A DNA stretch of 36,419 bases from Candidatus Gastranaerophilales bacterium (GCA_944323425.1 CALUSL010000021.1:1-36419); one strand, 5' to 3'. Shown: positions 1,992-36,082, numbered from the stretch's first letter. The notes: generated from the letters alone by a model not told the origin. Program-made: numbers and translations.

Positions 1992-2020
1992 TTGACAGAG
2001 ATTAATGAGCATTTTAGAAT
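1992..2020 (+). promoter_or_regulatory. Consensus sigma-70 type promoter for the riboswitch operon
   Basis: The -35 box TTGACA (1992-1997), a 17-base spacer and the -10 box TAGAAT (2015-2020) predict a transcript start near 2027. That is just before the conserved riboswitch core, so the promoter and RNA element fit together. Confidence 0.75.
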
Positions 2021-2027
2021 TGTTTAA

Positions 2028-2245
2028 ACAGAGGGAACCGGGGTGGAATTCCCCGACTGAGCCGCAACCGTAAAAGCCGGAATACTCTGGGGGATATCAC
2101 GAAAGGTTGATAAAACTTTTTTGTAGAGAGAGCAAGTAGTTGGAAGTACTTATTCATCCCCGAAATGCCGATACTTCGAGCTTAGGTCAAGGCACATAAC
2201 GAGCTTAAAGTATCCCGCGTTTACAATTTAAACAGGGATTTTTTA
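2028..2245 (+). promoter_or_regulatory. Compact cobalamin-riboswitch-like leader with expression platform
   Basis: The core reads as a cobalamin aptamer. GAGGGAACC (2031-2039) is followed by a GGGG/CCCC stem (2040-2054) closing TGGAATT, then GCCGCAACCGTAA (about 2061-2073). Next comes AAGCCGGAATACTCTGG (2074-2090), which resembles the B12 box. The peripheral P6-type domain of class I is missing, so it looks like the small class II form. Downstream, GGGGAT (2090-2095) pairs with ATCCCC (2156-2161), enclosing two hairpins at 2102-2120 and 2134-2151. GATACTT (2170-2176) pairs with AAGTATC (2208-2214). A last hairpin (2212-2239, ATCCC/GGGAT plus GTTT/AAAC) overlaps the ribosome-binding GGGA and runs into six Ts. 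It shares ATC (2212-2214) with the preceding stem, so the two are mutually exclusive. This is a plausible switch, read by eye only; the ligand is inferred. Confidence 0.6.
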
Positions 2246-2932
2246 ATGTCAACACAGATTACAGGGAATGTTAGAACAGGAACTTGCCCGCACGGATTAC
2301 CGCCGGGGGCTTGCCCTATATGCAACGGTATGGGGGGCGGCGGCGGTGGAACCAGAACAGTTGAACACAAGCCCGGGGAACTCACCTGGAGTCAGTGTTA
2401 TGCCATCGGACAAATGATGAAAGCTCAAAAACTTGCTAAAGAAGAGGCTCAGGCTGAGGCGCTGGCTCAGGCTCAAAAAAGTATGGCGATTGCCACTGCC
2501 CAATTTGCTGCACAGATGCGTGAACTTCTTATTAAATTCCTGCCGGCTCCGGTTTCAGATGCCATTATGTCGGTAAGTAACAATGTTATTATGCCGGCTG
2601 TCAGGTTTGTTCAAAACGTATTCAACAGTGTTCAAACAACTTTAAATAACCTTGCGAATGCTGTTAAAGAAAAATTTGCCGAAATTACTGACAAACTAAC
2701 CGCGCTTTTTGGTGAATTCAAGGCTGCTGTTGAAAAGAAAGTTTCGGACAAATTAAGGGAACTTAAAAAGAAAATTTTTAATCTTTTCGGATTAAGTGAG
2801 GCAGAAAACGAGGACGAAGAAAAGCGGGTAGAGGAAGAAAAAAGGCTTTTTGATTTGAAAAATTTGAAAGAAACTATTTTTAATTCAAAAAATATTAATG
2901 AAGAAGAAAACAATGACGACGGTGAAGAATGA
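2246..2932 (+). CDS. Unrecognised protein with N-terminal double CPxG/CPxC motif, 228 aa
   Basis: First gene of the riboswitch operon. I do not recognise the family. The N-terminus has TCPHGLPPGACPICNG (residues 13-28), three cysteines and a histidine in a spacing suited to binding one metal ion. A Gly-rich linker follows (29-36). Residues 50-90 form an Ala/Gln/Glu-rich helix. Residues 95-180 are a long amphipathic helical region with a moderately hydrophobic patch around SDAIMSVSNNVIMPAVRFVQ. The C-terminus is very acidic. There is no signal peptide. The ribosome-binding site is the AGGGA sequestered in the leader hairpin. The stop overlaps the next start in ATGA, indicating translational coupling. 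It may be a scaffold or a partner of the membrane protein encoded next; that is inference from order only. Confidence 0.75.
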   Translation: MSTQITGNVRTGTCPHGLPPGACPICNGMGGGGGGTRTVEHKPGELTWSQCYAIGQMMKAQKLAKEEAQAEALAQAQKSMAIATAQFAAQMRELLIKFLPAPVSDAIMSVSNNVIMPAVRFVQNVFNSVQTTLNNLANAVKEKFAEITDKLTALFGEFKAAVEKKVSDKLRELKKKIFNLFGLSEAENEDEEKRVEEEKRLFDLKNLKETIFNSKNINEEENNDDGEE

Positions 2933-4485
2933 GTTATATTAAACCATATCAGGACCTGGAAACAAGAAAACAATACAGAAATCTGACAGAAACTCAGAGA
3001 AGAAATATCTCTGAGGTTAAAGAGGGGCTTGTTGTTAATAATTTGATAAAAGACAGGGATTGTTCCGCAGAAACACCTGATTTGAATGAGATATATGACA
3101 ATTTAATTATTCCTGATAAAACAACGCAACCGGATAGTTTTGTGAAAATTTCCGGAGATAAAATAGAGTCACAACCTGAAAAACCTCTTCACAAATCTCT
3201 GCTTCCTTTATTGGGCGGGACTGTGGGATTGTTTGGATTGATTGCCGGTTCTGTCGGGCTTCTGTCTCTTGCTTCAGGTTATAAAAAGAATCTCCCCTCG
3301 TGGAAAACTCTTCAGGAAATTCCAAAAAATATTTCTATAAATGACGAACCGCATTTTGCTACACTATTGATGATAAGAGATCCTAATACAAGAAATATAC
3401 TCGGGGCTCTCGGGGTTTTTGTTCTGAGTGCAATAGGGCTTGTGAGTAAGAATTTTGTTGACGGTGTAAAGGAAATCTGGATAAGAAAGAAACAGGCTGA
3501 TATTCAACGTGATTTGCAGGAAAAACTTATTGCTGTAGAGACAAGAAGTTTTTCTGGTAAGATGCAAATTATGCGGAATATGCTTTCGGATAAGGCTAAA
3601 GAGCTGGACTATGTATTGCATTTAGGCAATCGGGGACAGGAAAATGCTACGTTTAAACAGTTTCTCTCTTTCGGACAAAAGAAAGATCAAAATTCGGATA
3701 AGAATAATTTTGTTCTGGCTGCAGGTTTGGTGTTTGGTACTGTTCTTGCAATAACCGGGCTTGGCACACTGGCTCTTAGATTCCTAAGGCAGACAGCTAA
3801 AAATATAAGCGGTTATCGTGGACAAATGCTGGAGTATTGGAAAAATCTTGTAAAAAATACAGAGGGCAAACTCTCTGATGAGCAGTTGAATACATTAAAT
3901 AATATGTTTGTTTCTCTGAATGCCTCAGAAAAGGAAATAAAACATGTACTCGGTCTTGGTGAAAATTTGTCGGGTGAGGCATTGAAAAAAGAGGCTGAAA
4001 AAATTGGTAAATATCCGCAGGAATTTTTTGATTATGTAAAAAAAGAAGTTGAGCGTGTTACTGTGCACGGTGCTGAGGCAATTGCCGGTAAGCCGAGTTC
4101 AAAACCAATGCTCTATTCATACACAGAGGGTGACAGGGCACATTTGTATAACATGATTGTGAACTGGGAAAATCCTATTTTGAAACTGGTTTTCGCCGGC
4201 ATGTCAGCTGTTACGACGGTCGGGTATGTGGGTACTTCTATTGTTGATGCACAAAAAACAGTTCAGGTAATGAAAGAAAATGCAAAGACTGAACTTGATT
4301 TGCAGGATAGACTGGTAAATGTTGAACTGAATAATTTTAGTGCTAAGAAAAATAGCGTTATTGAGCCGCTTATGGATGAGTTCAGAAAACAGGCACGTGC
4401 AGGCAAGGACAAACAGGAATTAAAAACCCGTGCCGAAAATATTTTGTATGAAATCAAAAACGGTCCTCCGTTTGTATACTCATAG
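2929..4485 (+). CDS. Unrecognised multi-pass membrane protein, 518 aa
   Basis: Second gene of the riboswitch operon, starting inside the stop of the first (ATGA). I do not recognise the family. Four hydrophobic segments are visible: around residues 88-112 (LLGGTVGLFGLIAGSVGLLS), 157-175 (ILGALGVFVLSAIGLV), 262-285 (VLAAGLVFGTVLAITGLGTL) and 420-442 (ILKLVFAGMSAVTTVGYVGT). Segments two and four are each followed by a similar stretch: (V)KEIWIRKKQADIQRDLQEKLIAVE and VQVMKENAKTELDLQDRLVNVE. This suggests an internal duplication of a helical-hairpin-plus-coil module. The loops are long, polar and helical. No catalytic motif is visible. Co-regulation with the preceding cysteine-motif protein suggests an envelope complex. 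Confidence 0.75.
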   Translation: MSYIKPYQDLETRKQYRNLTETQRRNISEVKEGLVVNNLIKDRDCSAETPDLNEIYDNLIIPDKTTQPDSFVKISGDKIESQPEKPLHKSLLPLLGGTVGLFGLIAGSVGLLSLASGYKKNLPSWKTLQEIPKNISINDEPHFATLLMIRDPNTRNILGALGVFVLSAIGLVSKNFVDGVKEIWIRKKQADIQRDLQEKLIAVETRSFSGKMQIMRNMLSDKAKELDYVLHLGNRGQENATFKQFLSFGQKKDQNSDKNNFVLAAGLVFGTVLAITGLGTLALRFLRQTAKNISGYRGQMLEYWKNLVKNTEGKLSDEQLNTLNNMFVSLNASEKEIKHVLGLGENLSGEALKKEAEKIGKYPQEFFDYVKKEVERVTVHGAEAIAGKPSSKPMLYSYTEGDRAHLYNMIVNWENPILKLVFAGMSAVTTVGYVGTSIVDAQKTVQVMKENAKTELDLQDRLVNVELNNFSAKKNSVIEPLMDEFRKQARAGKDKQELKTRAENILYEIKNGPPFVYS

Positions 4486-4493
4486 GATAAGTT

Positions 4494-5018
4494 ATGAAAG
4501 TAGATAAAGTATCGTTTAAAAATAGTTTGCCATACCCTAACAAAGCTCCGCTTGGTACTTTGTTGCCTCAAATTGGAATGCAGGTTAGTTTGCCCGACAG
4601 AAATAGGAATTATACATTATTTAACCAAAATCTTGTAAAACAGATAGTGGACTATAAAGAGTCAGCTCTTCCCGAAATGTGGAAATATCTTTCAGTTGTC
4701 CAAAATGAAAAGCAGGTTGCGGAGGGACTTTATATTCTTGATAGGATGATAGACAACGGGGTTCAGGGTGTTGATAAGCTGTACCCAGTTATATGCCGTT
4801 TTGACCGGACTACATCTCCAACAATTCAGGTTTTGCTTTCGGGTATTTACAGAAAAATAAAAGTTCCCGATGCTTTTGGGCCTTTGATGAGTATGCTTAT
4901 TAAAAATACATTTCAGCCGCCTGCTGTTTCTTTTGATCCTAATCAGGAAATCGGGGGGGCTATATTGGAGTTGTTGAGAAATACTTCTGCAGAAAATGGA
5001 TATAAAAATAAGTATTAA
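4494..5018 (+). CDS. Unrecognised helical protein, possibly HEAT-like, 174 aa
   Basis: Third gene of the operon, eight bases after the second, with AGGATAAG before the ATG. The N-terminus MKVDKVSFKN is followed by a Pro-rich stretch (KNSLPYPNKAPLGTLLP). Residues about 50-170 look like paired helices (LPEMWKYLSVVQNEKQVAEG, LYILDRMIDNG, LYPVICRF, TIQVLLSGIYRKI), reminiscent of a short HEAT-type repeat fold used for protein binding. It has no signal peptide or membrane segment. A strong terminator follows directly, so this closes the riboswitch operon. Function unknown. Confidence 0.75.
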   Translation: MKVDKVSFKNSLPYPNKAPLGTLLPQIGMQVSLPDRNRNYTLFNQNLVKQIVDYKESALPEMWKYLSVVQNEKQVAEGLYILDRMIDNGVQGVDKLYPVICRFDRTTSPTIQVLLSGIYRKIKVPDAFGPLMSMLIKNTFQPPAVSFDPNQEIGGAILELLRNTSAENGYKNKY

Positions 5019-5048
5019 AAAAGCCCTAATTTCGATTTAGGGCTTTTT
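5018..5048. terminator. Bidirectional Rho-independent terminator
   Basis: AAAAAGCCCTAA (5018-5029) pairs with TTAGGGCTTTTT (5037-5048). It ends the riboswitch operon and, read the other way, the skp-like gene at 5068. Confidence 0.9.
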
Positions 5049-13317: not shown

Positions 13318-15288
13318 TTATGAACAACCGGAATATCCGCAGTTAAGACATATAAAGCAGCCTTCACCATATCCAAGAATTGCACCGCATTCAGGACATT
13401 TATGTTCCTCTCCTTCATGCTGTTCAACTACTTCTATAGATTTAATTTCCGGCATTTTTTTATCTTCTTTTTTCTCAAGATTCATTGGCTGGAATTGTCT
13501 TGAGTTGTTGCGGTATACAGTGATACCTTTGAGATTATTTTCAAAAGCCAATTTGTATGAATCTGCAACATCTTCTCTTGTTGCATTTTCTTCAAAGTTG
13601 ACAGTTTTTGAAACGGCATTGTCTGTGTGAAGCTGGAATGCAGCTTGCATTTTTACGTGCCAGTAAGGTGAAACATCATGCGCACAAACAAATATTTTCT
13701 TCGCTTCTTCCGGTACTTCTTTGCAATGAGCTAGAGTTCCGTCAATTGATATTTTTTTCATCAATTCTTCAGAATAGAATCCGTGTTCTCTTGCATATGC
13801 TTCAAATATTGGATTAACCTCAACCAGCTTTGTTCCGTCCATTACGTCTCTTATGAATACAAGACCGAACAGAGGTTCAACACCGCCTGATGCACTTGCT
13901 ATCATAGAGATTGTACCGGTCGGAGCAATACAGGTAGTTGTCGCATTTCTTATACCAACCTGAGCAATTTGTTTGTCTAATTCTGCCCACATTTCGTCAG
14001 TAATTATGCCTGCTGATTTTCCTTTGTATTTTTTTGTAAGCCAGTTTTGTCCATCGTATATGCTGCCTTTGAAATTATTGAAACGACCTCTCGTTTTTGC
14101 AAATTCAATTGATTTTACTTTTGAGTGATAATCAATAAATTCCATAATTTGTGCAGCCAGTTTTGTGCCTTCTTCTGAATTATATCCGACACCTAATTGC
14201 ATCAGCATATCTGCCCAGCCCATTACACCAAGACCGATTTTTCTGTTATTTTGTACCATTTCACTAATCTGAGGAAGAGGATAGTTGTTGATTGCAATTA
14301 CATTATCAAGGAAGTGAATTGCCATTTTTGTAACTGCTGCAAGTTTATCCCAATCAACACTCAAATTACCCTTTTCGCCTTTAAGCATAAGTCCGAGGTT
14401 TATTGAGCCGAGGTTGCAAGCTTCGTATGGAAGAAGCGGAACTTCTCCGCATGGGTTTGTTGATTCAATATCACCAATCAATGGAGTTGGATTGTCATAA
14501 TTCATTTTGTCAATAAATATGATGCCGGGTTCTCCGTTTCTCCAAGCCCCGTCCACAATCAAATCAAATACTTCTTTTGCGTTCAATTTTCCTACAGGCT
14601 GTTTAGTTCTGGGGTGAATTAGTTCATAGTCACCGCCCTGTTTTAATGCTTCCATAAATTTGTCTGTGATTGCTACAGATATATTGAAATTGTTTAATTT
14701 ATTGTTATCAGATTTGCAATTTATAAATTCGAGAATATCTGGATGGTCAACACGGAGAATACCCATATTTGCACCTCGTCTTGTTCCACCCTGTTTTACT
14801 GCTTCAGTTGCTGCATTAAATACTTCCATAAAACTTACTGGACCTGAGGAAACACCCATCGTGGAACGAACGACATCATTTTTCGGTCTTAATCTTGAGA
14901 AAGAAAAACCGGTTCCGCCTCCGGATTTGTGTATTAATGCTGTATTTTTTACAGTCTCAAAAATACCTTCCAGTGAATCCTCAACAGGAAGAACAAAACA
15001 TGCCGCAAGTTGCCCGAGTTCTCTGCCTGCATTCATAAGCGTCGGTGAATTCGGCATGAAATAACGATTTGTTATAAAGTTATAAAATTCTTTTGTTGTT
15101 TCTTTTATTTCTGAATCGGTTGCGCCGAATTGTCTATCCGCTTCTGCGAGAGTCGATGCAACACGCATAAACAAATCTCTAGGTGTTTCTGTCGGCACAC
15201 CGTTTTTGTCTCTTTTTAAGTATCTTTTTTCCAGAACTTTGATGGCATTCTGGGACAAGTTTAGTTTTTCTTCCATTTCAAGGCTCAC
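13318..15288 (-). CDS. nrdJ: Adenosylcobalamin-dependent (class II) ribonucleotide reductase
   Basis: NrdJ reduces ribonucleotides to deoxyribonucleotides without oxygen, using B12 to make the active-site radical. In this 656-aa protein the thiyl cysteine is Cys280 in the motif NPCGE (Glu282). The redox pair is Cys97 (AACFVLP) and Cys291 (EACNLGS), with the 11-residue 280-291 spacing of class II enzymes. The C-terminal zinc ribbon CPECG...CLNCGYSGC is typical of NrdJ. I use the GTG at 15288 because GGGGGAG lies eight bases before it; the ATG at 15276 has no ribosome-binding site. No B12 riboswitch is visible upstream. The gene shows that the organism needs cobalamin. Confidence 0.95.
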
Positions 15289-35672: not shown

Positions 35673-36082
35673 GGGGACGTTTTGGATTTGACGGGGTGAT
35701 CGTTTGTATCAAACTGCGAGTCCGAGCGCTGTTCTCGGTTATCAACGAGCAACTTAAAATAAACGCTAACAACGTTATCGAAGGCAATTTCGGCAGAAGA
35801 GCAGCTCTCGCTGCCTAGTAACCGATAGTTCTACAAACTGAACTATGCCCACTCTTGCCGCCCAGCTTGCCGGTTGCAAGGGTAAATTATGCAAGACGCA
35901 GTGCAATGATGAGAATTAGTTGCATCAAGTTTTTTCTCAAAGAGCGTATCTCTTAAAACTGCTTTGTTTTGGCTCAGGTTCAGGCAGCTTTCCTTGCTAA
36001 AACGAGATAAAAGACTCCTACGCTCGTAGATGTTTGCTGCATTCCATTTCGGACAGGGGTTCGACTCCCCTCGTCTCCACCA
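35673..36082 (+). ncRNA. ssrA: Transfer-messenger RNA (tmRNA)
   Basis: tmRNA frees stalled ribosomes and tags the peptide for destruction. The acceptor stem pairs GGGGACG (35673-35679) with CGTCTCC (36072-36078), followed by ACCA. The T-arm is GGGG-TTCGACT-CCCC (36056-36070). The tag frame (35765-35818) starts at GCT and ends at TAG. It encodes ANNVIEGNFGRRAALAA, whose ANN start and ALAA end are those of known tags. The RNA is one piece, not circularly permuted. Confidence 0.96.

Follow-up and report, generated by a model that had tools for sequence, protein, structure and literature searches.

A conserved operon of three proteins without known family under a predicted AdoCbl-II cobalamin riboswitch in Candidatus Gastranaerophilales, possibly for cobalamin acquisition

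A cobalamin riboswitch of the AdoCbl-II class precedes an operon of three genes, with products assigned to no known protein family, in a stretch of 36,419 nt (hereafter the window, meaning the whole stretch of DNA that was analysed). The source lineage of the window is Candidatus Gastranaerophilales (Melainabacteria), gut bacteria that are non-photosynthetic relatives of cyanobacteria. Linkage of the riboswitch and the operon is conserved across the order, and genomes with the operon mostly have neither BtuC nor CobS. We favor, at a probability of roughly 0.55, the interpretation that this B12-repressed operon encodes a membrane-associated complex acquiring cobalamin in bacteria that have lost B12 synthesis and BtuBFCD. 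As far as the literature searched shows, the operon is undescribed and its proteins are in no curated family; a search that excluded subscription journals found no paper linking Gastranaerophilales or Melainabacteria to the operon.

Results

Promoter and riboswitch aptamer

The Rfam scan of the entire window produced two matches above cut-off, a tmRNA at 35673 and the cobalamin riboswitch RF01689. The covariance model of the latter was covered in full (1-81) with a score of 42.9 bits and an E-value of 3.5e-7, while the curated gathering score is 36.5 bits. This was the single RF01689 match in the 2.03 Mb genome of the source organism. The RNA switch is a newly found member of the known class AdoCbl-II; a first-pass annotation of this DNA had described a compact B12-aptamer-like core in a cobalamin-riboswitch-like leader ahead of three proteins of unknown function, and the covariance-model search that it proposed bears this out with one correction, namely that the match begins ahead of the likely transcription start.

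The consensus promoter noted in the same annotation was recognized as well (Table 1). With the promoter ending at 2020, the expected transcription start is close to 2027, where the aptamer has its foot. Because the aptamer match begins at 2019, ahead of this probable start, the outermost base pairs in the Rfam model would not be formed.

The leader is similar to other members of RF01689 (clan CL00101) in that it scores above the gathering threshold, matches the complete model, has the conserved core and precedes a hairpin at the ribosome site. It differs with respect to what it controls, three proteins without known family. In family f3 the aptamer positioned ahead of the same operon scores higher as RF00174 than as RF01689. 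Control of the operon by B12 through the predicted switch is, judging from the sequence, well supported.

The tmRNA extends over positions 35673-36082 and has the tag peptide ANNVIEGNFGRRAALAA. Another feature of the window, an ORF at its edge (57-1121) with no Pfam family, may encode the C-terminal end of a larger surface protein.

Table 1. Features of the riboswitch-operon locus and the NrdJ gene in the window.
Feature	Position	Strand	Basis
Sigma-70-type promoter TTGACA-N17-TAGAAT	1992-2020	+	11 of 12 consensus positions
AdoCbl-II cobalamin riboswitch aptamer (RF01689)	2019-2095	+	42.9 bits vs gathering score 36.5; core nearly invariant in genus
Variable linker, aptamer to expression platform	2096-2169	+	Low conservation, flanked by two conserved blocks
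Candidate anti-sequestor hairpin, GATACTT 2170-2176 / AAGTATC 2208-2214	2170-2214	+	Sequence and genus conservation; putative role
Sequestor/terminator-like hairpin, ATCCC 2212-2216 / GGGAT 2235-2239	2212-2244	+	Sequence, minimum-energy fold
Protein 1, 228 aa, CPHG...CPxC and C51, then amphipathic helices	2246-2932	+	ORF, alignment
Protein 2, 518 aa, four membrane helices, two homologous halves	2929-4485	+	ORF, profile comparison
Protein 3, 174 aa, HEAT/ARM-type alpha-solenoid	4494-5018	+	ORF, structure model (pLDDT 90)
Hairpin AAGCCCTAA/TTAGGGCTT with T-run, probable operon end	5021-5048	+	Sequence; putative role
NrdJ, adenosylcobalamin-dependent ribonucleotide reductase	13318-15288	-	Family search; B12 requirement of the genome

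Expression platform

In the alignment of the leader within the genus, a variable linker separated two conserved blocks, namely the aptamer core and the region that runs from TGCCGATACTT up to the start codon. By inspection, the stems of the candidate anti-sequestor and of the sequestor hairpin (Table 1) are mutually exclusive, as had been claimed in the first-pass annotation; they are kept in the genus, and most of the order has an equivalent hairpin. The sequestor hairpin has an additional pairing of GTTTA (2219-2223) with TAAAC (2229-2233), contains the Shine-Dalgarno sequence AGGGA (2234-2238) seven bases ahead of the ATG of protein 1 and is directly followed by six T residues (2239-2244).

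A hairpin with a T-run ahead of the start of protein 1 was found in 86 out of 110 leaders across the order (a set in which some leaders are duplicated between collections), compared to 9% in dinucleotide shuffles, and the end of the hairpin in these 86 leaders was nearly always 4-10 bases upstream of the protein 1 start. The hairpin in the window, which has a bulge and a longer loop, fell below the threshold of the hairpin scan, yet it is the minimum-energy fold of the region. The platform hairpin may block ribosomes, terminate transcription, or both. When covariation of the aptamer 5' strand with the hairpin arm was assessed by swapping, own combinations gave 0.79 and swapped ones 0.75; therefore, we claim no pairing between the two.

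Genes under the same riboswitch class

Further RF01689 sites in relatives were situated before NrdD, often with NrdG (verified by Pfam), before MetE, before CobT, and before a BtuB-type TonB receptor whose cluster also contains BtuC. The NrdD sites include L178, L181, L182, L183, L185, L187, L188, L190, L192, L193, L194, L195 and others; in many Gastranaerophilales the riboswitch-led NrdD coexists with the B12-dependent NrdJ elsewhere in the genome. We also observed a cobalamin riboswitch ahead of a B12-binding radical-SAM protein in genome G035 (L184:803-2281) and ahead of an OprB-type porin, CbiM and CbiN in genome G050 (L191:599-3078). The latter arrangement suggests that an outer-membrane porin involved in supplying cobalt or cobalamin is under riboswitch control.

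Most of the coregulated genes are classic targets, shut off in the presence of cobalamin. Since the genes sharing the switch class are mostly expected to be B12-repressed, we infer by analogy that the predicted switch of the operon is an off-switch. Riboswitch-controlled NrdD and MetE resemble the operon in having the same switch class, in the same order, and being expressed under B12 shortage; unlike them, proteins 1-3 have no catalytic domain.

The three proteins of the operon

The genes are tightly packed, with a four-base overlap between those of proteins 1 and 2 and an eight-base gap between those of proteins 2 and 3. Searches in Pfam and NCBIfam assigned no family to any of the three proteins singly, Pfam also assigned none through 56-70 relatives, and in neither collection did the operon show a catalytic domain such as those of NrdD and MetE. 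The earlier statement that the operon matches no B12 gene agrees with this outcome, and its descriptions of a four-helix membrane protein and a helical, HEAT-like protein both proved accurate.

In the alignment of relatives of protein 1, the motif C14-P-H-G...C23-P-x-C26 was invariant and C51 nearly invariant. Each half of protein 2 finishes in a long charged helix. Profile comparison of its regions 140-260 and 395-518 revealed an internal duplication with probability 96.5 and E-value 8.5e-10 over 70 columns, compared to probability 1.0 and E-value 0.05 in the reversed control. Structure prediction gave a clear HEAT/ARM solenoid with confident fold for protein 3, while the model of protein 2 was weak (pLDDT 65) and a fold search with it returned no match. 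Hydropathy indicated no membrane segment in protein 3 or in most copies of protein 1.

The predicted fold of protein 3 is similar to that of the phycobilin lyase subunit CpcF (5n3u_B; VIA Z 10.9, rmsd 2.8, 127 residues) and of other HEAT/ARM proteins (VIA Z up to 13.5), from which it differs by having no sequence relationship and no Pfam repeat match. Helical repeats often reach Z values of this size, which therefore say nothing about function; the solenoid matches, CpcF included, were rejected as a functional clue, being many and not distinctive. Matches of proteins 1-3 to profiles of solved structures were also discarded, as they reflected coiled coils or helix composition only, and an N-terminal SFKG motif suspected order-wide in protein 3 was not significant. 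The search for viral relatives of protein 2 found none. Profile and fold searches with proteins 1-3 found no known transporter or corrinoid-binding fold.

Distribution of the operon

Protein 1 was present in 47 of 59 neighbourhood genomes. In 45 of these 47 genomes, protein 1 was preceded, at a distance of 80-343 nt and on its own strand, by a B12 riboswitch, which was RF01689 or, for some members of family f3, RF00174; hence the co-occurrence of riboswitch and operon in related genomes, proposed earlier as a check, extends order-wide. Those relatives that bear names are Candidatus Gastranaerophilales. Of the 386 genomes of the phylum, 162 had protein 2, and all of the matches listed were within Gastranaerophilales. 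The gene order 1-2-3 was conserved in nearly all of 80 named loci.

Variant operons in G028 and G033 (L017, L219, L220) consist of protein 1, protein 3 and a second copy of protein 3, with no protein 2, in genomes that kept NrdJ. Conversely, proteins 1 and 2 were present in the f3 genomes examined, and protein 3 was not found beside them. Given that protein 2 or protein 3 is missing in these lineages, protein 1 is the only constant component. Genus g53 kept the operon without NrdJ, and the riboswitch was not detectable in two of its genomes.

Two side observations concern neighbouring genes. In family f3 there is a protein 1 paralogue that lacks the cysteine motif; its gene invariably adjoins one for a putative secreted protein, some 270-325 aa long (L210:4578-5213, L211:380-958, L212:2540-3160, L213:4972-5568, L214:4837-5484, L215:4875-5609). 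At about 31 loci (including L128, L130, L087 and L114), a gene with the product start MGMAASQARFLGLTARK..EGQQINQQRT (MGMAASQARFL start) and no Pfam family is situated 55-150 nt after protein 3 on the same strand; it occurs in some genera only and is absent in the window.

B12 economy and anticorrelation with standard genes

The dependence on B12 through NrdJ, claimed in the first-pass annotation, is supported by the NrdJ gene within the window. Family searches of the source genome found no TonB-dependent receptor plug (PF07715), no FecCD permease BtuC (PF01032) and no CobS (PF02654); the FecCD control search was positive in 13 of 14 known genomes.

The presence of the operon was anticorrelated with these alternatives. 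BtuC or CobS was found in 4 of the 47 genomes with protein 1 compared to 7 of the 12 genomes without it (p = 5e-4, Fisher test, kinship not corrected). For genomes with NrdJ, the respective counts were 3 of 41 and 5 of 6 (p = 2e-4, Fisher test, kinship not corrected). The same contrast was seen within families: G021 (f1), G050 (f3) and G051 (f6), which have no protein 1, carry BtuBC or CobS, while their relatives possessing protein 1 are mostly without BtuBC or CobS. Four genomes (G019, G029, G034 and G048) have neither protein 1 nor BtuBC nor CobS, and they likewise have no NrdJ and no RF01689. The only NrdJ genome without protein 1 and without every alternative source searched was G038. Both the operon and BtuC were present in four genomes.

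For seven further genomes without protein 2, the prediction was that NrdJ would be absent or BtuC present. Six of the seven were without NrdJ, and five of these six were also without RF01689. The seventh, G226, runs against the NrdJ part of the prediction, the part covered in that genome, as it has NrdJ and no protein 2 or riboswitch. The PF02310 domain did not help to mark other B12 enzymes, since B12-binding radical-SAM proteins are present in both groups. The pattern of presence and absence suggests that the operon contributes to B12 acquisition as a substitute for the standard uptake genes, which are missing from most of the order.

Discussion

Under the proposed mechanism, plentiful cobalamin would make the AdoCbl-II switch shut the operon off: with ligand bound, the hairpin 2212-2239 would form and hide the Shine-Dalgarno sequence, and termination could take place on the U6 run. 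With no ligand, the arm 2170-2176 would capture the 5' side of the hairpin, leaving the ribosome site free, and proteins 1-3 would be made. The proteins may then form a membrane-associated complex, in which protein 2 would sit in the inner membrane, protein 1 would be a partner contributing the cysteine motif and amphipathic helices, and protein 3 would act as a solenoid scaffold. Such a complex would obtain or import cobalamin for B12-dependent bacteria that have lost B12 synthesis and BtuBFCD.

The uptake role is argued for by the coregulation, the absence of alternatives and the anticorrelation taken together, and it is weakened by lineages without protein 2 or protein 3, since a permease should not be optional. 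The more specific proposal, that proteins 1-3 form a system of cobalamin acquisition with no relation to Btu, ECF or BacA importers and have replaced BtuBFCD and B12 synthesis, is tentative and in our judgment falls somewhat short of an even chance. The unrecognised cobalamin uptake or remodelling system suggested by the first-pass annotation is, accordingly, upheld in part: the B12 economy of the source genome and the anticorrelation speak for it, while the absence of a recognisable transporter or corrinoid fold and the variant lineages speak against it, and the absence of CobS counts against the standard remodelling route. Gastranaerophilales are reported to be diderm, with lipid A genes (PMC4040986). 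The acquisition model leaves passage through the outer membrane unaccounted for; porins are one possibility.

A comparison can be made with Anabaena PCC 7120, where cobalamin uptake by BtuB-TonB-BtuFCD is under control of a cobalamin riboswitch (PMC10878165). Both are riboswitch-controlled operons in the same phylum, serving here a purpose that is presumed, and riboswitches of the same class are situated ahead of BtuB/BtuC in a few relatives. On the other hand, the operon has no beta-barrel, TonB plug, periplasmic binding protein, FecCD permease or ATPase.

Among the genes coregulated in relatives, B12-independent NrdD is the commonest, which would fit a response to B12 starvation with no cobalamin transport, one that spares or replaces a B12-dependent process or protects the membrane or DNA synthesis when NrdJ stalls. 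The loss of protein 2 or protein 3 from some lineages with protein 1 also fits such a modular response better than it fits a permease, and protein 1 is similar to apolipoprotein-type helices. We still consider this explanation unlikely, as proteins 1-3 have no enzyme-like domain and the anticorrelation with BtuC and CobS is not expected of a backup function. Intracellular cobalamin handling appears less probable again. Protein 1 would then be a membrane chaperone or store for corrinoid or cobalt, docked by proteins 2 and 3, and the importer would be an ECF-type BtuM/CbrT or BacA-like protein. The constancy of protein 1 with its invariant cysteine/histidine motif, as well as the two NrdJ genomes that keep it without protein 2, would be explained in this way; however, the motif matches no known corrinoid site, and genomes with BtuB/BtuC or CobS need handling proteins too, yet they are mostly without the operon.

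It is highly improbable that the operon is a part of the cell-surface or secretion apparatus of the order and is B12-regulated by chance. The MGMAASQARFLGLTARK gene following protein 3 and the f3 paralogue next to a putative secreted protein point in this direction, but the linkage of the following gene is confined to some genera and is absent in the window, while hydropathy shows no membrane segment in protein 3 or in most protein 1 copies.

If the acquisition role is true, the operon represents a new kind of cobalamin system. Gut communities are shaped by B12 exchange, and the operon bears on the question of where NrdJ bacteria without BtuB, BtuC or B12 synthesis get their cobalamin. It offers for testing three defined genes that are riboswitch-tagged, conserved order-wide and of no known protein family, and it opens one of few routes into the physiology of these little-studied non-photosynthetic relatives of cyanobacteria.
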